DNA of 64,000 nucleotides from NCBI RefSeq assembly GCF_016802865.1, contig NZ_JAEVHM010000012.1:1-64000 (forward strand). Reading direction: 5' to 3'. The notes below the pieces were generated by a model. It was not told the origin of the DNA, did no database searches, and saw nothing but the letters and a program-made list of their open reading frames with translations. The stretch is from Micromonospora parastrephiae. Lineage in GTDB: Bacteria; Actinomycetota; Actinomycetes; Mycobacteriales; Micromonosporaceae. Below, piece after piece: positions 45,017 through 58,018 of this stretch (positions within the stretch are counted from its first letter, which is position 1; each line of letters starts with the position of its first letter). Both the position numbers and the translations under genes were made by a program.

Positions 45017-46366
45017 GTGCGTACCAGGAAATTCAGATCCGTGATCGTCGCGCTGGCCGTGACCGTGGCGGTGGGAGGCGTGTCCGTCGGCACGGCCAAC
45101 GCCGCCGAGCCCTCCCAGTTCACCGTCACCGACGGCGCGATCCGTACGGCGACCGGCACACCCACCCCCGCCTCCGGCACGCACGCCTCGCTCTGGGGTA
45201 ACACCAGTTACGCCACCACGAGCGTCACCGGCTCCGGGCGGGTGCTGATCGGCGCCATCGGTGACAACTGCCAGGGCTGGCCGACCGTGCGGGTGACCGT
45301 CGACGGCGTCAGCGTCGGGCAGACCACCATCGTCAGCGCGACCAGCTACGGCACCTACCCGGTCGGCGCTGCCCTCGGCGCCGGTCAGCACGCCGTGCGG
45401 ATCCAGTTCGTCAACGACTTCCGGGCCGAGACCTGCGACCGCAACGTCCACGTCGCGTACGCGCGGATGGAGACGCCGGGCGCCACCGACACGAAGTTCA
45501 GCATCGCCGTTCTGCCGGACACCCAGCAGGAGGTGCTCGACAGCACCGACTCGCGCTTCCGCAACCGAACCGACTGGCTGGTGCAGAACAGGTCCACGCT
45601 GGATCTGCGCTTCGTCACGCACTCCGGTGACGTGGTCAACTGGGACACCCCCGACCACTCCCAGTACGTCATCGCCCGCGACGCGATGCGCCCGATCGAG
45701 ACCGCCGGCATCCCGTACTCGCTGGCCATCGGCAACCACGACACCCAGGCGACCGGCGTCGGGGGCTCCGCCCGCGACCCCGCCCACACCCGGGAACTCG
45801 TCCGCGACACCACCGTGTTCAACCGGTACTTCACCGCCGGTCAGTTCGGGGCGGTCAAGGGACAGTTCGAGTCCGGCAAGGTCGACAACTCGTACTCGAC
45901 CTTCGAGGCCGGCGGCGTGCAGTGGATGGTGCTGACCCTCGAACTCTGGCCCCGGGTCGAGGCGGTCACCTGGGCCAGGAGCGTCGTCGCCGCCCACCCC
46001 CGACACAACGTCATCGTCGTCACGCACGACTTCATCGACGGCAACGGCGCCATCGAACAGAGCGCCTCGTACGGCGCGACCAGCCCGCAGTACCTGTTCG
46101 ACAACCTCATCAAGCAGTACGCCAACATCCGGTTCGTCTTCTCCGGTCACGTCGGCGTCGCCGCGAACCGGGTCGACACCGGCGTCAACGGAAACAAGAT
46201 CTACACGTTCCTCCAGACGTTCCACTCCAACACCACGAATCCGGTACGCCTCGTCGAGATCGACACCGCCGCGAACTCGCTGCGTACCTGGATCCACGCG
46301 CCGTACACCAACCAGTCCTTCGGCGAGTACGACAGGTCGTTCACCGGCATCGGCGTGGTCCGCTGA
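45017..46366 (+). CDS. Secreted metallophosphoesterase with N-terminal CBM60-like xylan-binding domain
   Basis: A 449-residue exported protein from GTG 45017, after GAGGAAGGAC. Signal peptide about 1-31 (RSVIVALAVTVAVGGVSVGTANAA). Residues about 35-150 resemble the Ca-dependent xylan-binding module: GDNCQGWPTVRVTVDGVSVGQTTIVSATSYGTYPVGAALGAGQHAVRIQFVNDF...CDRNVHVAYARM. Residues 160-449 are a calcineurin-like phosphoesterase with all metal motifs: VLPDTQ, THSGDVVNWD, IGNHDTQ, VVTHDFID and FSGHVG. A carbohydrate-binding module on a phosphoesterase suggests action on phosphorylated glycans or adhesion to plant matter (inference). Confidence 0.9.
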   Translation: MRTRKFRSVIVALAVTVAVGGVSVGTANAAEPSQFTVTDGAIRTATGTPTPASGTHASLWGNTSYATTSVTGSGRVLIGAIGDNCQGWPTVRVTVDGVSVGQTTIVSATSYGTYPVGAALGAGQHAVRIQFVNDFRAETCDRNVHVAYARMETPGATDTKFSIAVLPDTQQEVLDSTDSRFRNRTDWLVQNRSTLDLRFVTHSGDVVNWDTPDHSQYVIARDAMRPIETAGIPYSLAIGNHDTQATGVGGSARDPAHTRELVRDTTVFNRYFTAGQFGAVKGQFESGKVDNSYSTFEAGGVQWMVLTLELWPRVEAVTWARSVVAAHPRHNVIVVTHDFIDGNGAIEQSASYGATSPQYLFDNLIKQYANIRFVFSGHVGVAANRVDTGVNGNKIYTFLQTFHSNTTNPVRLVEIDTAANSLRTWIHAPYTNQSFGEYDRSFTGIGVVR

Positions 46367-48990: not shown

Positions 48991-49281
48991 TCACTCCGAT
49001 CGGATCGGATCCCCCGCGGAGACGGCGCCACCGCGTGAATCTGGCCGGGAAGGCATCCCCAGCAGCGTGCGAACGGTGGACCAGCCGTACTGGACCGCGA
49101 TCGCGGCGGGAACGGCCGCTGCGGTCGCGGCCAGCACCAGCCGGGTCCACGGCGGTGCGTGACCGCCCGCCCCGGTGATGGCGAGCAGCACGAACACGAG
49201 CAGTACGACCCGCAGCCGGTGCAGACCGGGAAGGTCGGTCCGCTCCGGGCGGGTCCGCGTCACGGTGTCGATCGGCGTCAC
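48991..49281 (-). CDS. Small two-helix membrane protein preceding oxalate decarboxylase
   Basis: A 96-residue protein from GTG 49281 after GGGAGGCCGTC. Two hydrophobic segments: RLRVVLLVFVLLAITGAGG (about 28-46) and TRLVLAATAAAVPAAIAVQYGW (about 52-73), with a hydrophilic Arg/Ser/Gly tail. No recognised family. The 13-bp gap to the OxdC start suggests one transcript. It could be linked to oxalate or formate transport, but it is too short for a carrier, so that is speculative. Confidence 0.65.
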   Translation of the reverse strand: MTPIDTVTRTRPERTDLPGLHRLRVVLLVFVLLAITGAGGHAPPWTRLVLAATAAAVPAAIAVQYGWSTVRTLLGMPSRPDSRGGAVSAGDPIRSE

Positions 49282-49528
49282 GACGGCCTCCCTGTCGCAG
49301 GTCCTGTCAGCTGATGGTCCGGGTTGGGCCCGTGGGCTCGCATCACGTGATCGCGCCATAGCGGCACGTCAGATCGGGGACGACGTGAGCCATTCGGCGC
49401 ACACCGGTTCTCCGTTGCCTGCTGCGGGCGCTGGTTCGTCGATCTGGTCGCCCACCCCTGCCGCTCTGGTTAGGCTCGGTCGCAGGACGGCATTTCGACG
49501 CGCCGGGTTACCACCGGGGAGAACGCCA

Positions 49529-50991
49529 TTGTCCGATTCAACCTTCGACGCGAACGCGACCGCCGCGATCCGTGGCGTCGACCCCGACCGTTGCCGCCCG
49601 CCCGGTCGCCTGGCGGAGCTCGTTGCCGGGGAGCAGCCGTCGGTCGCCCTCGCCGCGCTGCGGGCCGCGCTGACGCGGCCACTGGACACCGGCGGCCGGA
49701 GCACCGTGCTCGCGATGATCGCCACCGTCGCGGCGCGTACCGGACACCCGGATGCCGACGCCCTGCTGCGCGACGCCGGCACCGCGCACGCGGCGGTGGG
49801 TGATCCGTCGTCCGCTCGCCACCTCGCCCTCGGCCGGGCCGCCCGTTCCCTGTCGTACGGGGACCTACCGGGCGCCGACGCCGTGCTGGCAGTCCTGGAT
49901 CCCGACGCCCCGACGGCACGGGAAGACGCCGCGTCGATCCGGGCGGAACGAATCCTCGTCCAACTCGGCCTCGGCCGACACGAGGACGCCCGAACGGCGG
50001 TCTGCCAGGCGTTCGACGCCACGACCGCGCCGGGCACCGCGGCGAGTAGCAGGCTGACCGCCCTGGACTGCCTGCGCATGGTCGCGGTGGGCGAGTTGCC
50101 CGAGGCGGCGGCGCTGGCCGCCACCACGCTCGGCTCGCAGGACATCAGCCAGGAGGTCCGTGCCCTGCTGGTCGCGGTGGTCGCCGAGGTCCGCTACCGC
50201 CGTGGCGAGGCCGACGCCGCGCGCGCGATCCTCCGCGCCGGCACCGGGCAACGGCGCTGGCCCGACAGTACGATGTGGACCGCCGCACTCTGTGTCGCCG
50301 TCCGCGACCCCGTGGTCGGCGAGCCGGCGCACGCGCTCGGTCAGGTCGTCGCCGACCTGCACCGGTCGGTCCGGCCGCTCCTGCCCGTCCCGCAGTTCGG
50401 CCCCCGACTGGTACGCGCGGCCGTGGCCGCCGACGACCCGCACGCCGCCCGACGGGTCACCGAACTGGTCGAAGGGGTGGCCGCGCGCACTCCCGTCCCG
50501 CTGTGGCGCGCGCTGGCCGACCAGACCAGGGGCCTGCTCGACCGCGACCCGGACGCGCTGCGCTCGGCGGTCGGCCGACTGCGCGCCACGGCCGCCCGGC
50601 CGGCGCTGGCGACGCGTTGCTCGACCTCGCGAACAGCCCCCGGCTGCGACCCGCGGAGGCGCGGGAGGCCGCGCACGAGGCGGCCGCGCTCTACGCCCGG
50701 ATCGGCGCGCCCGGCGACCAGTCGATCGCCGACCGCCGGTACGTCGCGCTCGCTGCCGCCCCGCACCATTATCGACCTCCGAACGCGGGCCTGGGCCTGC
50801 TCACCCCCGCCGAGAAGCGGGTCGCCGAGATCCTGGCCGGGGGCGCCACCAAGAAGCAGGCGGCCGGGAGCCTCTTCGTCTCCTTCCACACCGTGGACAC
50901 GCAGCTCCGGTCGATCTACCAGAAGCTCGGTATCAACAGTCGGCTCCAGTTGGTCCGAGCCTGGGATCGATACAAGGCGACCAGCAACTGA
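49529..50991 (+). CDS. LuxR-family regulator with TPR-like N-terminal region (frame interrupted once)
   Basis: Restored length is 487 residues. A TTG start at 49529 follows CCGGGGAGAACGCCA (LSDSTFDANATAAIRG). The first 400 residues are helical repeats rich in Ala/Arg (VALAALRAALTRPLDTGGRSTVLAMIATVAARTG and similar), like the C-terminal half of LAL-type regulators but without the NTPase. The C-terminal HTH (about 425-485) reads LTPAEKRVAEILAGGATKKQAAGSLFVSFHTVDTQLRSIYQKLGINSRLQLVRAW, a full LuxR domain. The frame breaks at about 50608 (ARPAL); one added base in a G pair joins to GDALLDLANSPRLRPAEAREAA. Target unknown. Confidence 0.87.
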
Positions 50992-51018: not shown

Positions 51019-52113
51019 TCAGCGCGTGTCGGCCTGCCGCTGGGTGTCCCCCGGTCCGGGTTCCCCGCCCGCGGCCGAGTCCCCCACCAGCACGGACTCC
51101 CGGGCCTCCCGGCGTCCCTGCTCCCGAGCGAGGGCGAGCAGCCCGGCCAACCGCCGTCGACGACGGCGGACCGCGACCCGTACGCCGAGCAGCAGCGCGG
51201 CGAGCAGGAACAGCACCGCGAGCTGCGCCCACGGCACGATCCAGGTGGTGACGGCGCCGGACGCCTGCCGGAGATCCGCGCCATCCTGAGCGTCGCCCGG
51301 CAGGGCCGGAGTGGTGGTGACGGTCGTACGGAGCCGTCCCAGCGCCCAGACGCCGTCGACGCGGGCCTCGACCTGCCTGCTGCCGCCGGGGAGCAGTTCC
51401 TCGATCTCGCCGGTGACGTCGCGGTTGGAGAGGCCGAGGACGTCGGAGACCGCGACCCGCCCCGTGCCGGTGACCCAGACGTTGCCGTCGTTCGTCACGG
51501 TGTAGCGAACCCGGACCGTGCCACCGGCGAGAGGATTCCACGACGGGGTGTAGGTGACGGCGAGGCCCTGGACGGGCAGGCTCGCCCGGACCGTGCCGTT
51601 GACCCGCATCATGACTCGGAACCCGACGCGGCTCTCGACGTTGACCGTGCCCCCGGTGCTGGTGACGGTCGCCGCGACGCCGGCCGGATGGTCACCGGGA
51701 GTGGCGCCCCGGGGCACGGTGATCGTGAACGGCACCACCCTGGTCTCGTTGGGGCCGACGGTGACCTTCTCCTGCACGTCGATCCAGGTGCCACCGTCGA
51801 CGGAGGGGCGGTCCGACGGCAGCATGTTGAAGCGGCCCTTGTCGGTGAGATAGCCGTCGGCGGCCTTCAGTGCGAAGGTGACGGCGGAGCGGCTGAAGTT
51901 CCGGACCGCCAGGTGCTCGGTCACGACCTGTCCCGGATCGACGGTTGCCGTGATCCATCGACGTTCGTCCGGGCCGCTCGCGGTGGCCGGCTGGACCGTC
52001 CAGGTCAGGGCCTTCGGGTCCGGGTCCGCCGCCGCCGCGGTCGGGGCGGCCGGAACGGCGAGGGCCGCGACGGCGAGGACGGTGAGCGCCCGGCGCAGCG
52101 GGGTGACGGACAT
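51019..52113 (-). CDS. DUF916/WxL-interacting-type exported membrane protein
   Basis: A 364-residue protein. ATG 52113; signal peptide about 1-31 (RRALTVLAVAALAVPAAPTAAAA). Two Ig-like extracellular domains (about 35-275): LTWTVQPATASGPDERRWITATVDPGQVVTEHLAVRNFSRSAVTFALKAADGYLTDKGRFNML, then VTVGPNETRVVPFTITVPRGATPGDHPAGVAATV and the second domain with RVRYTVTNDGNVWVTGTG. A C-terminal transmembrane helix (AQLAVLFLLAALLLGVRVAV, about 300-320) is followed by a basic cytoplasmic tail. In Firmicutes DUF916 proteins bind partner WxL proteins at the cell surface; the gene here lies 59 bp after a WxL-like gene. Confidence 0.82.
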   Translation of the reverse strand: MSVTPLRRALTVLAVAALAVPAAPTAAAADPDPKALTWTVQPATASGPDERRWITATVDPGQVVTEHLAVRNFSRSAVTFALKAADGYLTDKGRFNMLPSDRPSVDGGTWIDVQEKVTVGPNETRVVPFTITVPRGATPGDHPAGVAATVTSTGGTVNVESRVGFRVMMRVNGTVRASLPVQGLAVTYTPSWNPLAGGTVRVRYTVTNDGNVWVTGTGRVAVSDVLGLSNRDVTGEIEELLPGGSRQVEARVDGVWALGRLRTTVTTTPALPGDAQDGADLRQASGAVTTWIVPWAQLAVLFLLAALLLGVRVAVRRRRRRLAGLLALAREQGRREARESVLVGDSAAGGEPGPGDTQRQADTR

Positions 52114-52172
52114 GGCGACGGCCCTTCGACAGGGGGCTTGGCGGGGGCCCGGTCCGGACCCCCGCCGAGCCG

Positions 52173-52805
52173 CTACTCGAACAGTGAGAGCGTGAGCGTG
52201 GAGCTGTACTCGCCGGCGGCGACCTCCGCCGGGGCCCGCAGGTACAGGTCGGCGTTGACCGAGTACGAGTCGCTGGCGACGGCCGCGGAGTCGAACGCCG
52301 AGACCAGCAGCTCCTGGTCGACCAGGCCGACGTTGTTGCCGGGCAGGGTCTCCTCGTCGAGGACGGTCACCACCTCCTCGCCCTCGGTGACCAGACCGGT
52401 CTCCCCACCGTCGAGCAGGCGCGGCTTCCAACCGAAGTGGTCGGCGCTGATCGGCGGCTGACCGGCGCTGCCCGCGAAGTCGGTCGCGCTGCCCAGCACG
52501 GCCCAGCTCGCACCGTCGGGCACCTCGTCGGCGACGCGGGTGTCGGTGACCGTCACCGTCGGCAACGTACCGACGAACTGACGGACCAGCAGGGTCGAGC
52601 CGTCCTCGGACAACGCGACGGAGTCGCCCGCGATCGACAGGGCCAGCACGCCCGGCTCCCTGATCTCGTCGATGTCGACGGTCACCCGCACGCTGGCGTC
52701 GTCGTCGGGCTCGGCCATCGCGGGCGAGGGCAGCACCGCCGCCCCGACCAGCGCGGCGCCGGCGGCGCAGGCCGCGAGCAGGTGTCGTCGTCTATGGGTG
52801 TTCAT
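52173..52805 (-). CDS. WxL-like exported surface protein
   Basis: A 210-residue secreted beta-rich protein. ATG 52805 follows GGAGATCAC. Signal peptide about 1-31 (RRRHLLAACAAGAALVGAAVLPSPAMA). The mature part begins DDDASVRVTVDIDEIREPGVLALSI and contains LPTVTVTDTRVADEVPDGASWAVLGSATDFAG and ISADHFGWKPRLL, positions matching the two Trp motifs of WxL-type domains (the first is degenerate: WAV for WxL). The end, AEVAAGEYSSTLTLSLFE, resembles the final strands of the family. It sits 27 bp after a GH43 gene and just before the DUF916 gene, the conserved WxL/DUF916 pairing. Probable surface adhesion or scaffolding partner. Confidence 0.77.
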   Translation of the reverse strand: MNTHRRRHLLAACAAGAALVGAAVLPSPAMAEPDDDASVRVTVDIDEIREPGVLALSIAGDSVALSEDGSTLLVRQFVGTLPTVTVTDTRVADEVPDGASWAVLGSATDFAGSAGQPPISADHFGWKPRLLDGGETGLVTEGEEVVTVLDEETLPGNNVGLVDQELLVSAFDSAAVASDSYSVNADLYLRAPAEVAAGEYSSTLTLSLFE

Positions 52806-52832
52806 GTGATCTCCGATCTCATCCGTGAAGGG

Positions 52833-55258
52833 TCATCCGCCGCAGGTGGCGGCGGGGTACTGCGCGGTCCGCACGGTCGTCACGTCCCTACCGCCGACCA
52901 CACCGGTCACCCGGACCGTCGCCGTACCAGCCGCCACCGACACCGCACGCGAGTTGAACGACTGATAGACACTCGCCCCCGGTGCCACCGCCGCGAACGA
53001 CCGACTCCCGTACGCCGTCTCCAACGCCACCCCGACCGGCCCATCCGAATCGTTACGCGCCCGCACCGCCACGTACGCCTTCCCACCCAGACACCGCGCC
53101 TGAGCCGTGACCGTCACGGGCAGCTCGGGCTCACCCGTGGCGGCTCCGAACGTCCAGGTGTCGATCTCGAAGAGGTCGGCGCCCGACGGGCCGGTGTAGG
53201 TGAAGTAGACGTCGTGCACGCCGGTGGCGCCCGAGAGGTCGGCGGTCACCTCGGCCCACTCGCCGTTCGGCGTGTCGACCGGGATCGTGCCGACCACGGG
53301 ACCGTTGACGTCGTCCAGTCGTACCTCGATCTTCGCGCCGGCGGCGAGCGTCCGCACGCGGGTCGTCACGCTGCGCGCGCCGTTGTCGCCGAAGTCCACC
53401 GACGACAGTGCCGTCCAGTCCCCGTTGTCGATGTCGCGTACCACCAGGTTCGGCGCCGCGGCGCCGAACTGGGCGGAGGCATCGTCGACCTTCGCGGTCG
53501 CGACGCCCTTGCTCCAACCGAAGGTCTCGGCCTCGAAGACGCGGTACGGGTCGAAGTTGCGGACCTGGTCGACGCCGGCGTAGGTGCCGACGACCTGCTG
53601 GATCGTGCCGTCCGGGTTGAAGGTCAGTTCCTGGATGTGCGGGCTGCGGTACCCCTGGGTGGTGTTCCCGTTGATGCGCTTGTTCAACGTCGGGGCGTGG
53701 TACGTGAAGTAGTACCTGCCCCCGAACTCGAAGACCGACTGGTGGTTGTTGCCGCCCGTGCCGGCGCCGAAGAACTGCGACTGGTTCGGGAACAGCACGC
53801 CCGCGTAGGTCTCCTTCGGCCACGACATCGGGTTGTCGGAGATCAGGTAGCCGATCTGGCCGGCGCCCGGGTATCCGGGAAGCGGCTGCTGGTTGCCACC
53901 GAAGTCGTTGCCGCCGAAGTGCGAGGAGTACGAGAAGTAGTACTTGCCCGCACGCTTGAAGACGTGGCCGGCCTCGAAGGCGACCGGGGCGTCGACCACC
54001 GCGGCCGTCCCCTCGGTGGAGACCATGTTGTCGCCGAGTTCGATCGCCCGGATGTTCTTCGGGTTGTTGAACCGCTCGGCCGGCGGCATGCTCGTCGACG
54101 CGGGACCACCACCGAAGTAGAGGTACGGCTGACCGTCGTCGTCCACGAACGGCGCCGGGTCGAACTTCCAGGCGACGTCCTCGGCGCCGGGGGTGCTGCC
54201 GTTGATCAGCGTGCTCGTACGCTCGCTGGTCCACGGGCCGAGCGGTGACGCTCCCGTGATCACGTTGCTGGAGCCGCCGCCGTTGGCGTAGTAGAGGAAG
54301 AACTTTTCCTGGCCGTTCACCACCTTTCTGGTGATGCCGGGCGCCCACGAGTTGGCGGTGAACGGCGCGACGCCGTTCGGGCCCGCGACCTGGATCTCGC
54401 CGTGATCCGTCCAGTTCACGAGGTCCTCCGAGGAGATGACCGTGATCTGGTTGATGTTGCCGTAGTTGATGCCCGGCGAGACGCCCGTAGCGGGGTCGGG
54501 GGCGTAGCCCTGGGTGTCGTTGGTCATGTACATGTACACCCGGCCGTCGTGCACGAACCCGAAGCCGTCGGCGCCGAACTTGTGTCCGATCAACGGGTTG
54601 TGCTCCCCCGGCAGCTTGCCGACGACCTCGATGGTCTTCGACGCGCCGCGGGCGGGGCGGCGCCGACCACCGACACGTCATCGAGTGTGAAGTCCATGAG
54701 GTGCAGGTCCGGGTCGGTGGAGGGAGTGCTCGTCCACGGCGTCTCGAAGAACAGCCGGGCCGTCGACACGTTCTGCTCGGCGGGGATCGTGAACGTCCCG
54801 TTGAACTGCGCCCACTGGCCCTTCGTCGCCGTCACGCTGACGAGGTTGGTGTAGGTGGCGGCGCCGTAGTGCATCGTGGCGAAGAACTGCTTGGTGGCCG
54901 GCCCGCTCGGGTTCTCGTACTTGATGCGGGCCGTGAGGACGTACGTCTGCCCGGCCTGCACCTTGCCGCTGAGATCCTGCATGGGCCCGGATCCGGTGGT
55001 CGTCCGGTTGGTGACGAGCGCGGCGCTCGATCCGGAGTAGGCGTCCGACGTGACCGAGAGAGCCGCACTGTCGGAGGCGTTTCCGTTGTTGACGAACCAG
55101 TTCGCGGTGCCCTGCTCGAAGCCGCCGTTGACGACAAGATCCGTTTCGGCGGCCTGGACGGGTGCCGCCCCGGCGACGATTCCTGCGGCCAGCAGCACGC
55201 CGACCGATGCGATCGCGGCGACCCGTCCTCGGGTCGCGCGTCGCTGTGGTTGTTCCAC
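52833..55258 (-). CDS. Secreted GH43 arabinan/xylan-active enzyme, CBM4/9-GH43-CBM6-like plus C-terminal module (frame interrupted once)
   Basis: Restored length is 808 residues. GTG 55258 follows AGGAGGATGCC. Signal peptide about 1-36; CenC/CBM4-9-like domain about 38-195 (LVVNGGFEQGTANWFVNNG...HLMDFTLDDVSVVG); GH43 propeller about 215-520 (NPLIGHKFGADGFGFVHDGRVYMYMTND with the base Asp, WKFDPAPFVDDDGQPYLYFGG, FEAGHVFKRAGKYYFSYSSH with the acid Glu); CBM6 about 585-715 (YRVFEAETFGWSKGVAT); a final 95-residue module starting LPVTVTAQARCLGGKAYVAVRA. The frame breaks at about 54646 at VGAAPPA; one added base in a G pair (coding strand) restores GASKTIEVVGKLPGEHNP. Second gene of the GH43-GH43-WxL-DUF916 cluster. 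Confidence 0.88.
52835..53122. repeat. 288-bp direct repeat, copy 1
   Basis: Encodes the C-terminal module of the first GH43 gene. It aligns without gaps to 55454-55741; only four differences are visible (two silent, two changing residues near the end: TAQY against TVQH). Confidence 0.92.
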
Positions 55259-55451
55259 GAGGCATCCTCCTTCATCTCTGACGTGCGGTCATCGGTGTAC
55301 GGGGATCGGTGGGGTGGACGCTCGGAGGTCAGGGTCGGTCACGCCACCGGCGCGAACGGGGCCGGCGGCGCGGGACAGGACCGGCCGTTCCGCGCGCCGG
55401 GCGGTCGTGCCGTGGTGGCGGTGCCCGGTGCGCCGGGAACCCGTGCCGGGG

Positions 55452-57853
55452 TTATCCGCCGCAGGTGGCGGCGGGGTGCTGCACGGTCCGCACGGTCGTC
55501 ACGTCCCTACCGCCGACCACACCGGTCACCCGGACCGTCGCCGTACCAGCCGCCACCGACACCGCCCGCGAGTTGAACGACTGATAGACACTCGCCCCCG
55601 GCGCCACCGCCGCGAACGACCGACTCCCGTACGCCGTCTCCAACGCCACCCCGACCGGCCCATCCGAATCGTTACGCGCCCGCACCGCCACGTACGCCTT
55701 CCCACCCAGACACCGCGCCTGAGCCGTGACCGTCACGGGCAACGCCGCGAGCACTCCGAGCCGGGCCAGTTGGTAGCTGAGTGCCCGCTCCGGCGCGTCG
55801 ATCTGGTTCTGGGTGCCGAAGTGTCCGGCCCGCGCCGACCTGGCCGCCGTGAGCGCGGACTGTGCCGCGGCCCAGGCGTCGGCCGGGTAGTGGCGCCCGT
55901 CGAGGCTCTCGGCGTGGGCGATGGCAGCGTCGAGGGCGCTGGTGTCCAGTGGCCGGGCCTGCGCGGTCAGCGTGTCGCTGAGCAGGTAGTGGTCGAAGTC
56001 GACCCGTCCGCCGGTCTCCTGGGTCGCGTAGTTGAACAGTCCGACCCGGTGACCCATGAAGTGCGCGAGGCTGCGTCCAGCGTCTGCGGCCCGACGCGGT
56101 CGCCCAGACGAGTCCACTGCTGCCCGTCCAGGCTGTAGTAGAACGTCGTCCACAACTGGCCCACCGGCGAGGCGAAGTCGAGGTCCGCCTTCACGTGCAC
56201 CTCGGTGGCGGCACCGAGCGGCACCGTCGTGCCCGGTAGGAAGGTCTCCAGCGTCGACTGGTCGAGGTCGACCGCGAACGGCTGCACCCGGTTGACGACG
56301 CCCAGCGTGTTGACGCCGCCGACGCGCTTGACCGCCACGTACGAGAATCCGCGGTTGTAGGCGGCCAGGCCCGCGACGTCGCCGTTTCGCATCCCGGAGA
56401 TGTCCATCCGGGTCTCCACCGACTGCCGTGGCCCGAACGTCCGCTGGGAGAGCGTGTTGCGGGCCTCCTCGAACCACGCCAGCTCGGCCCGGTTGGACAG
56501 TTTCGTGTAGACGTACTGGCCGGTGACCACCTTGCCGGCGGTCAACCGCAGCCAGCCGTCACGGTCGGTGAGCGACCAGTACCGGTTGTCGGGGGCGTGG
56601 TTCCACTCCCACGCCAGGTCCAGCCGCGATCCGTTGGGTCTGATCTCCGCCTCGTCGAGCGGCGCGGGCACGGTCCACTGTTCGTCCTGGTACGCCCTGT
56701 GCGGCGCGTCGTTGGCGAAGTCGTCCGAGGCGACGATGCTCTTCTGTCGTTCGAACACCTCCTCCGCCGGGCTGAGCTGGATCGGCTTGTCGAACAGGCC
56801 GTTGACCGGTACGACACCGTCGGTGCCGAAGGTGGGCCACCCGTCCTGCCAGGTGGCGGGAATGAGCGCCGGGATCCGCCCGATCGGGAAGGTGTCGCGG
56901 AAGAACATGCCGTGCCAGTCGGTCCCGCCACCCGGGCGGCTGATCGGCACCAGGCTGCCCTGCGCGAAGCCGTTGGAGTTGAGCACCCCACGCGCCTCGT
57001 AGGTGTTCACCCCGCCGGCTGAGGTGTAGCGGCCGAGCAGGTTCTTCGACCGGAACATGACGACCTGGCGGCCCTGCCCGGACGGCCAGGTGATGATGAC
57101 GGCGTAGTACCAGCCGTCGATGCGATAGAACTGCGCGCCCTCGAACAGGCCGCCGATGAACGGCTGCCCGGCGTAGTCGCCCGCCGTGAAGATGTTCGGA
57201 TAGTCCTGCTCGATGGCCGTCAGATCGGCGTTGAGGCGTACGGCGCTGGTGCCGCCGGAGCCGTAGAAGATGTACGGCGTGCCGTCGACGTCGAAGAACA
57301 GCGACGGGTCGTGCAGGCCGCGGCCGAGGGCGGTGCGCTGCCAGGCGCCGTTCTCGATGTCGTCGGTGCGGTAGAGGTACGCCCCGTTGAGGTTGTTGGT
57401 GTTGAAGGCGACGTAGAACATGCCGTCGTGGTAACGCAGCGACGACGCCCACTGACCCTGGCCGTACGAGTTCTGGCCGTTGCGCAGTGAGAAGGAGTCA
57501 CCGATGCTCGCCCGGTCGAAGACGTAGTTGACGATTTCCCAGTTCACGAGGTCGTAGGACTTCATGATCGGCGCACCCGGGCTCAGGTGCATCGTCGTGC
57601 TGATCATGTAGTAGATGTCGCGGCCCTCGTCGTTCTCGGCGGCCGGCACGCGTTCCACGCTGATGTCCGGCACGTCGGCGTTGAGCAGCGGCACCGAGTA
57701 CGTGCCGGCGCCGGTGTCGGTCGAGGTGTACGACGATCGGGGCGACCACTGGTCGGCGGCGTGCGCGACGGCGGGCGTGCTCACCAGGCTGGCACCGACG
57801 AGCACGGCAACCGATGCGAGCGTGCGCAACGGACCGGGCCGTCGGGTGTGCAC
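55452..57853 (-). CDS. Secreted GH43 beta-xylosidase-like enzyme with C-terminal module (frame interrupted once)
   Basis: Restored length is 800 residues from GTG 57853 (VHTRRPGPLRTLASVAVLVGASLVSTPAVAHA signal; a weaker TTG at 57979 is also in frame). GH43 propeller about 45-360: PLLNADVPDISVERVP (base Asp), MHLSPGAPIMKSYDLVNWEIVNYV, SLFFDVDGTPYIFYGSGG, GLFEGAQFYRIDGWYYAVI (acid Glu). Xylosidase C-terminal beta-sandwich about 375-600 (WEWNHAPDNRYWSLTDRDGWLRLTAG, YVYTKLSNRAELAW). An alpha-helical segment (SALDAAIAHAESLDGRHYPADAWAAAQSAL) leads to the same 95-residue module as the next gene. The frame breaks at about 56074 near TLD; one added base restores GSLAHFMGHRVGLFNYATQETGG. First gene of the surface cluster, behind a LacI-type operator. 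Confidence 0.88.
55454..55741. repeat. 288-bp direct repeat, copy 2
   Basis: Encodes the C-terminal module of the second GH43 gene; nearly identical to 52835-53122, 2.6 kb away in the same orientation. Confidence 0.92.
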
Positions 57854-58004
57854 GGTGGACCCGAGCCGGTCCAGCGCACCGGCGACACAGTGGAGCGCGG
57901 CGATCAGTCTGGTCGACGTTGGCCTGCGGGAAGGGCTGGGGACACGCGAGCGGGTCGGCGCGACCAAGGTGGGCTCCAAACGCGAGGTGGCGTGGAGGCC
58001 ATCG

Positions 58005-58018
58005 TGTTATCGCTAACA
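58005..58018. promoter_or_regulatory. LacI-type operator TGTTATCGCTAACA
   Basis: Near-perfect palindrome (reverse complement TGTTAGCGATAACA), 25 bases before the TTG and 151 before the GTG candidate start of the first GH43 gene in the cluster. Same site, one base different, as at 7950-7963. Confidence 0.8.

Follow-up and report, generated by a model that had tools for sequence, protein, structure and literature searches.

A candidate surface enzyme-docking operon of Micromonospora parastrephiae combines CTM-tagged GH43 enzymes with a small WxL-like protein and a DUF916-type protein

The operon of Micromonospora parastrephiae described here, which encodes two GH43 enzymes, a small WxL-like protein and a DUF916-type protein, is perhaps best read as a surface enzyme-docking operon, an actinobacterial relative or variant of the csc (WxL/WxLIP) complexes of Firmicutes; we lean towards this reading with modest confidence. 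The wider proposal, that the C-terminal module (CTM) of the enzymes and the small WxL-like protein are dedicated docking partners through which many Actinomycetes display differing secreted enzymes on a shared membrane-anchored platform, is more tentative and, to us, nearly as easy to accept as to doubt. Both are built on evidence read from sequence, namely the gene order and its conservation, the co-occurrence of CTM and WxL-like genes, the diversity of the cargo, the DUF916 homology and the operator.

Results

The window analysed is a stretch of 64,000 nucleotides from a draft assembly of M. parastrephiae (417 contigs, 6.54 Mb). The operon occupies its minus strand and is ordered, in the direction of transcription, as operator, GH43, GH43, the gene for a 210-aa protein and the gene for a 364-aa protein. 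According to Pfam, GH43 enzyme 1 (55452..57979) consists of a signal region, GH43, GH43_C2 and the CTM, and GH43 enzyme 2 (52833..55258) of a signal region, CBM4_9, GH43, CBM6 and the CTM. Both enzymes were assigned to GH43 by PF04616 (E 2.3e-30 for enzyme 1 and 1.2e-28 for enzyme 2), and the CTM profile matched 55458..55745 (E 1.9e-42) and 52839..53126 (E 5.3e-44), respectively. After a gap of 27 bp follows the gene for the small WxL-like protein (52173..52805), which has a signal-like N-terminus and a strongly acidic mature part, and after a further 59 bp the gene for the DUF916/WxLIP-type protein with a predicted membrane anchor (51019..52113). The coordinates confirm the four-gene, same-strand order with these two gaps that the earlier note had described. 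The operon thus has one WxL-like gene and one DUF916 gene, the rest being CTM enzymes. Rfam and tRNA scans across the window gave no match.

The operon was also said to stand under one LacI operator, and this was borne out. 5' of the first gene lies a perfectly palindromic operator of LacI type, TGTTATCGCTAACA (58005..58018), and the pattern TGTTANCGNTAACA was found at 27 genome sites with at most one mismatch, 11 of them exact, the reversed control pattern giving 1. The LacI-type palindrome 5' of the operon is conserved: it precedes the first GH43 gene in 20 of the 26 loci whose upstream sequence extends to 250 bp or more, the window counted.

Both GH43 genes span two frames in this assembly, with a break near 56070 in the gene of enzyme 1 and another between 54641 and 54662 in the gene of enzyme 2, and at locus L061 the orthologues each form one uninterrupted frame (954 and 794 aa). 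A split is also apparent in a LuxR-type gene close by. For that reason assembly errors are the likely source of the GH43 breaks, which may otherwise mark a true loss of function. Due to the split in the gene of enzyme 2, its catalytic GH43 frame is left without a signal peptide in this assembly. In this the genes depart from their description in the earlier note as two secreted GH43 enzymes.

The C-terminus of either GH43 protein is formed by a module of some 96 residues, which has two conserved Cys and which we named CTM. No family in Pfam corresponds to the CTM and NCBIfam showed none over that stretch, so the CTM appears to be an undescribed domain without a Pfam family. The two copies in the window operon are the only ones in this genome at E ≤ 1. 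AlphaFold2 gave a confident model of the CTM of enzyme 2 (pLDDT 95.7), a seven-strand Ig-like sandwich. A Foldseek search with this model returned no match at E ≤ 0.001; VIA-align gave a best Z of 9.6 with many unrelated Ig-like rows just behind. The likeness to 9fyn, a lacto-N-biosidase of Trueperella (Z 9.3, rmsd 3.5, 89 aligned, 21% identity), may be one of shared fold alone. Sequence searches of the PDB with the CTM and WxL-like profiles yielded nothing convincing (best E 0.21 and 0.015, respectively). A carbohydrate-binding module was given up as the preferred reading of the CTM, the cargo including nucleases, phosphatases and a peptidase.

The name WxL-like suits the 210-aa protein in a wide sense. 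An HMM search with PF13731 did not match it, nor any of 28 close members at E ≤ 1, and the same family was absent from its own genome at E ≤ 0.1. In alignments the protein lacks the canonical pair of WxL motifs: the first reads W-A-V (W-Y-V in the Clavibacter and Cellulosimicrobium members), and the distal one, given as Y-xxx-(L/I/V)-T-W-x-L in PMC5817068, reads Y-SST-L-T-L-S-L, with Leu in place of Trp. C-terminal domains of certain larger actinobacterial proteins are 30-38% identical to the 210-aa query and exceed the PF13731 cut-off in the same stretch. The E-values for PF13731 and for the 210-aa query were 3.3e-15 and 2.9e-7 in G076:C24, 7.8e-7 and 1.3e-10 in G016:C27, and 1.2e-6 and 2.4e-8 in G071:C1; L093 holds another WxL-scoring relative linked to the 210-aa protein. 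Because these fused relatives score over the cut-off in the same stretch, the 210-aa protein is a diverged WxL relative, and it can be placed, indirectly, in the WxL superfamily in the wide sense. Hence the assignment made in the earlier note survives through the fused relatives, but not as a direct match to the family.

The small WxL-like protein is highly conserved, with a mean column identity of 80%; its predicted structure is a low-confidence model (pLDDT 35.8). In the window the CTM has a pI of 9.9 and the WxL-like protein one of 4.05. Charge complementarity of the two was rejected as a general feature, the adjacent CTMs having a mean net charge of -0.3 (n=81). When Firmicutes WxL proteins were sought in a plasmid collection, the matches were actinobacterial only.

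The identification of the 364-aa protein as a DUF916-type partner was supported by its relatives, 23/23 of which matched PF06030 at E ≤ 0.01 (best 1.6e-8); the window protein alone stays below the gathering score (24.6 vs 27.3 bits). DUF3324 (HBD) was found in none of the 23 at E ≤ 0.01. The protein has N- and C-terminal hydrophobic stretches, the C-terminal one being kept in the alignment of relatives and corresponding to a membrane helix predicted from a hydropathy window at residues 286-317 (51163..51258, minus strand), after which comes a basic tail in which an AR-EGR stretch is conserved. Judged by these features, it is a DUF916/WxLIP relative without DUF3324. The Firmicutes WxLIP (DUF916-DUF3324-TM), according to PMC10599100, is proposed to bind WxL proteins and hold them at the wall. 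The 364-aa protein resembles the WxLIP described there in PF06030, a signal-like N-terminus, the C-terminal helix, a similar size and an adjoining small WxL-type gene, but differs in the lack of DUF3324, in the NQIDK-YFDLK motif, which was not visible in the alignment of the DUF916 relatives, and in its long basic conserved tail.

Conservation of the arrangement across related genomes had been set beforehand as the test of the proposal, and the WxL-like gene was found behind a CTM gene in every copy of two overlapping sets (L071 and L133, for example, are the same place). Among 121 Micromonosporaceae genomes, 20 carry 29 close relatives of the 210-aa protein, itself included (30 rows at E ≤ 4.5e-39, one gene being in two pieces; the next match stood at 7.3e-14), and a CTM end lies upstream on the same strand of 29/29. 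In the named genomes, the same was seen for 80/80 WxL-like copies at 78 loci, these copies being the best 80 of 243 relatives, with 14-167 bp between the two profile matches. These loci belong to genera that include Micromonospora, Plantactinospora, Phytohabitans, Dactylosporangium, Actinoplanes and Catellatospora as well as Nonomuraea, Acrocarpospora, Streptosporangium, Planotetraspora and Herbidospora. Micromonospora saelicesensis DSM 44871 has an orthologous operon (L109), and Micromonospora zingiberis has four CTM/WxL pairs (L133, L136, L141 and L147). A DUF916 gene is directly downstream of 58 of the 80 copies and none adjoins the other 22, one of which (L128) lies 77 bp from the end of its contig. 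DUF916 is apparently shared in G107, where four CTM/WxL pairs accompany one DUF916 match.

The CTM and the WxL-like gene also co-occur by genome, at cut-offs that were chosen for both families after viewing the tables. The CTM was found at E ≤ 1e-3 in 27/121 Micromonosporaceae genomes, strongly in 20 and weakly in seven, and the 20 strong-CTM genomes are the same 20 that have a close WxL-like gene (Fisher, kinship ignored: 2.8e-23 for strong CTM, 2.5e-17 for all 27 CTM genomes). In a second family, that of G387 (150 genomes), widened profiles were used with cuts of at least 140 bits for the small WxL-like protein and at least 80 bits for a strong CTM; the small WxL-like gene was present in nine genomes, all among the ten with a strong CTM (Fisher, kinship ignored: 1.2e-13 for strong CTM, 3.5e-9 for all 21 CTM genomes). 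Here 12/19 small copies immediately follow a CTM (same strand, <600 bp away) and 19/19 lie within 6 kb of one, a count that used 38 of the 82 CTM rows. In genera g1, g10, g11, g29 and g44, both genes are present in part of the sampled genomes and both are absent from others, which suggests that the two are gained and lost jointly. Altogether, the coupling of CTM and WxL-like genes was seen in Micromonosporaceae, Streptosporangiales and Micrococcales.

The CTM was also met alone. Seven of the 121 Micromonosporaceae genomes, all with weak matches, have a CTM and no close WxL-like gene; five of the seven carry the distant, fused WxL type elsewhere. At the CTM loci of five of the seven (L251-L254, L256), no WxL or DUF916 match lay within 17-19 kb. 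The small WxL-like gene is likewise missing from 12 of the 150 genomes in the family of G387 that have a CTM (G376 with a strong match and 11 with weak ones), and in a phylum sample of 396 genomes the CTM occurred in six, of which four, not G376 and G462, have the close WxL-like gene. The genome searches scored the best first-look candidates per genome, so misses are possible. These CTMs count against an obligate CTM-WxL rule and point to another partner or function of the CTM in such genomes. They would suit the explanation that the CTM is itself a cell-wall or glycan-binding module and that the WxL-like and DUF916 proteins form a parallel complex sharing only location and regulation with the enzymes. 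The modelled Ig-like sandwich, with its many unrelated Ig-like matches, agrees with such a role, as do the weak matches to CBM_35 in 2/31 CTM members (best 0.0074). However, a wall-binding CTM leaves unexplained why a WxL-like gene follows at most 167 bp behind the CTM in all 80 copies, and gives no reason why two enzymes fused to a WxL-like domain are without a CTM. We regard this explanation as unlikely.

Those two enzymes bear on the docking pair. The esterase of G535 has a WxL-like domain at its own C-terminus and an adjoining DUF916 gene; the alkaline phosphatase of G647 also has a C-terminal WxL-like domain, with no DUF916 at the locus. In both, the fused domain sits where the CTM sits in the split systems, which is the best hint that the CTM takes the place of a covalent connection with the WxL-like protein. 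The fused forms carry their WxL-like domain permanently, and this speaks against the WxL-like protein assisting the folding or assembly of CTM proteins outside the cytoplasm instead of being a fixed adaptor. A folding factor could well be small, acidic and conserved, adjoin the CTM genes and have DUF916 not always beside it. On the other hand, the relatives of DUF916 are described as WxL-binding membrane anchors in PMC10599100. A folding role is, in our judgement, improbable.

The cargo of the CTM proved diverse. The fetched loci contain 198 CTM copies, twice-fetched genomes included, of which 109 are directly upstream of a WxL-like gene; apart from one fragment, the adjacent proteins form 15 sequence groups (108 of 109). 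Pfam families found in the group representatives were GH43 of three kinds, arabinofuranosidase, DUF6351 (tannase-like), M14 carboxypeptidase, 5'-nucleotidase with a nuclease domain, nuclease-type phosphoesterase, purple acid phosphatase, ThuA with a galactose-oxidase-like part, and LVIVD. For the GH127 group, the member scanned by Pfam was not the adjacent one; a group of 1557 aa showed F5/8 and Ig-type domains only, and the representatives of two of the 15 groups matched no Pfam family. G387 and G435 each have six or seven CTM proteins inside about 27 kb, with a WxL-like/DUF916 pair among them. A plasmid of Clavibacter phaseoli carries, in this order, LacI, ABC transporter genes, a CTM-bearing GH43, WxL-like (annotated 'hypothetical protein') and DUF916, two further CTM proteins being encoded past DUF916 on the opposite strand. 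In a Cellulosimicrobium plasmid, the WxL-like/DUF916 pair starts with the WxL-like gene and has CTM proteins on either side.

The view that the surface pair is joined to arabinan/xylan enzymes was not supported, as the same WxL-like gene also follows genes for a nuclease, a phosphatase, an M14 peptidase and tannase-like and galactose-oxidase-like proteins. With nucleases, phosphatases, a peptidase and an oxidase among the cargo, the locus type is not restricted to polysaccharides. The suggested counterpart of a polysaccharide-utilisation locus, in which the WxL-like and DUF916 proteins would bind arabinan or xylan and feed the GH43 enzymes, was not supported either: the cargo varies, DUF916 is missing beside 22 of the 80 WxL-like copies, and the constant partner is the CTM of the enzymes. 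The GH43 pair, the LacI-type operator and the Clavibacter plasmid with its transporter genes fit such a locus, and binding to cellulose or xylan is described for Lactobacillus brevis WxL proteins in PMC9026416. Nonetheless, the window operon itself contains no transporter gene, and closely similar WxL-like copies are found behind nuclease, phosphatase, peptidase and oxidase genes in three genomes. We give this explanation little credence.

In these three genomes, which have several pairs each, the WxL-like copies are 86-94% identical on average and the adjacent CTMs 51-53%. Such identities would be expected of one shared adaptor with varied cargo, but gene conversion would look alike. Across 48 operons, the WxL-like distances correlated with those of the adjacent CTM at r 0.81 and with those of the operon's second CTM at r 0.64; the partial correlations on DUF916 were 0.48 and 0.18. 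The WxL-like and DUF916 distances correlated at r 0.83, and all three components intercorrelate (r 0.78-0.83). Since the WxL-like protein tracks DUF916 as well as it tracks the CTM, shared operon history explains much of the correlation with the adjacent CTM. Taken to its end, this would mean that the operon was duplicated as a unit and that gene order is uninformative on binding. Against such hitch-hiking, the catalytic part varies over the 15 groups while the CTM and the WxL-like gene stay together, and their coupling spans two orders besides Micromonosporaceae; we consider it very improbable. The two CTMs of the window operon have a within-operon identity of 0.96, and a few other operons are similar. 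Concerted evolution of an operon's two CTMs is clear in these cases but was set aside: within-operon identity exceeded the mean between-operon identity in only 19/30 operons.

Discussion

The docking model that we favour may be outlined as follows. The secreted enzymes would end in the Ig-like CTM as a cargo tag, a role suggested by genomics, and the CTM would dock by direct binding onto the small acidic WxL-like protein encoded by the next gene. The membrane-anchored DUF916 protein would in turn bind the WxL-like protein and hold it at the cell surface, the 210-aa and 364-aa proteins forming, by homology, the platform. The small WxL-like protein would thus act as an adaptor for exchangeable enzyme parts. 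In M. parastrephiae, the cargo would be the two GH43 enzymes, whose substrate is probably arabinan or arabinoxylan, and the operon may be switched on by a sugar through a putative LacI-type regulator.

In the working logic the model resembles the cohesin-dockerin system of cellulosomes, in which a small docking module lets exchangeable enzymes attach to one common partner at the surface. Here one adaptor gene per operon was found and no multi-cohesin scaffold was seen. The large WxL-type proteins found in Actinomycetota, which join a WxL-like domain homologous to the 210-aa protein to HtaA, propeller, Ig or enzyme domains, mostly have a DUF916 neighbour too, but their cargo is covalently fused and they lack the CTM.

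Closer in kind are the csc clusters (cscA-D) of Lactobacillus plantarum and its relatives, proposed to form surface complexes for carbohydrate use; in PMC1534035, CscA is a DUF916 protein of 320-380 aa with a C-terminal helix and CscB a small acidic protein of 190-280 aa. The likeness lies in a secreted multi-gene surface cluster with CscA- and CscB-type proteins and a large partner with a C-terminal surface domain, whereas the large partner here is an enzyme ending in the CTM and that of csc ends in a WxL2 domain. The small protein described here further differs in its lack of canonical motifs, and the hosts are Actinomycetota. In the open-licence literature, of which the passages available mostly concern Firmicutes, the arrangement with WxL/DUF916 in Actinomycetota or with such enzymes was not found. 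The passages on WxL/DUF916 in PMC4449606 concern Lactobacillus, PMC12537917 reports that Ang-2 of Actinomycetota has DUF916 and metallophosphatases next to it, and over 91% of 938 known WxL sequences are from Firmicutes according to PMC9772566.

Should the model hold, the cargo would be marked by a domain that Pfam lacks, with a conserved small protein serving as adaptor and a DUF916 protein as anchor. This would give a testable account of how Actinomycetes such as Micromonospora and Nonomuraea retain secreted enzymes on the cell, would make surface-retained enzymes predictable from sequence, and may be of use as a display tool. It would also extend the WxL/DUF916 biology, mainly that of Firmicutes so far, to enzyme display. 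The results suggest that the trio of CTM, WxL-like protein and membrane anchor may be a general means by which these bacteria keep secreted enzymes of many kinds on their surface.

Variation and distribution of the CTM

The two copies of the CTM, the C-terminal module of about 96 residues carried by both GH43 proteins of the operon (window 52839-53126 and 55458-55745), were 96-98% identical to each other, whereas their mean identity to the orthologues in other operons was 68%, far below the within-operon value. Such high identity within one operon was shared by a few other operons and absent from most. Among the loci of relatives, L240-L246 (genomes G435 and G387) encoded six or seven CTM proteins in about 27 kb, with a WxL-like/DUF916 pair among them. 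A distant CTM subtype formed the end of two adjoining proteins of about 660-790 aa in L251 and L256 (genomes G034 and G060), and no WxL or DUF916 match was found near these proteins. Approximately 5 kb from the operon, the window encodes a CBM60 and metallophosphoesterase protein (45041-46366), in which no CTM was found.

The LuxR-type regulator gene at 49175-50991 (GerE domain, 50617-50988) apparently lies in two frames. Both GH43 genes are likewise split, and these frame breaks hint at assembly errors in the draft.

Variants of the surface proteins

In the alignment of the DUF916 proteins (A7), a conserved tail, consisting of a basic run and then AR-EGR, followed the helix on its C-terminal side. 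Such conservation would not be expected of a protein that serves only as an anchor. The WxL-like domain was also present as a C-terminal fusion in an esterase and an alkaline phosphatase (L273:2632-5346 and L274:5716-7584). HtaA domains were detected in large actinobacterial WxL-like proteins, strongly in two (1e-41 to 2.5e-43; L091:8029-9450 and L096:8035-9438) and marginally in two others (L088 and L090), with DUF916 adjoining. These loci possibly represent a haem-related form of the surface platform proposed for the window operon, where a CTM enzyme would dock on the small WxL-like protein held by the membrane-anchored DUF916 protein.
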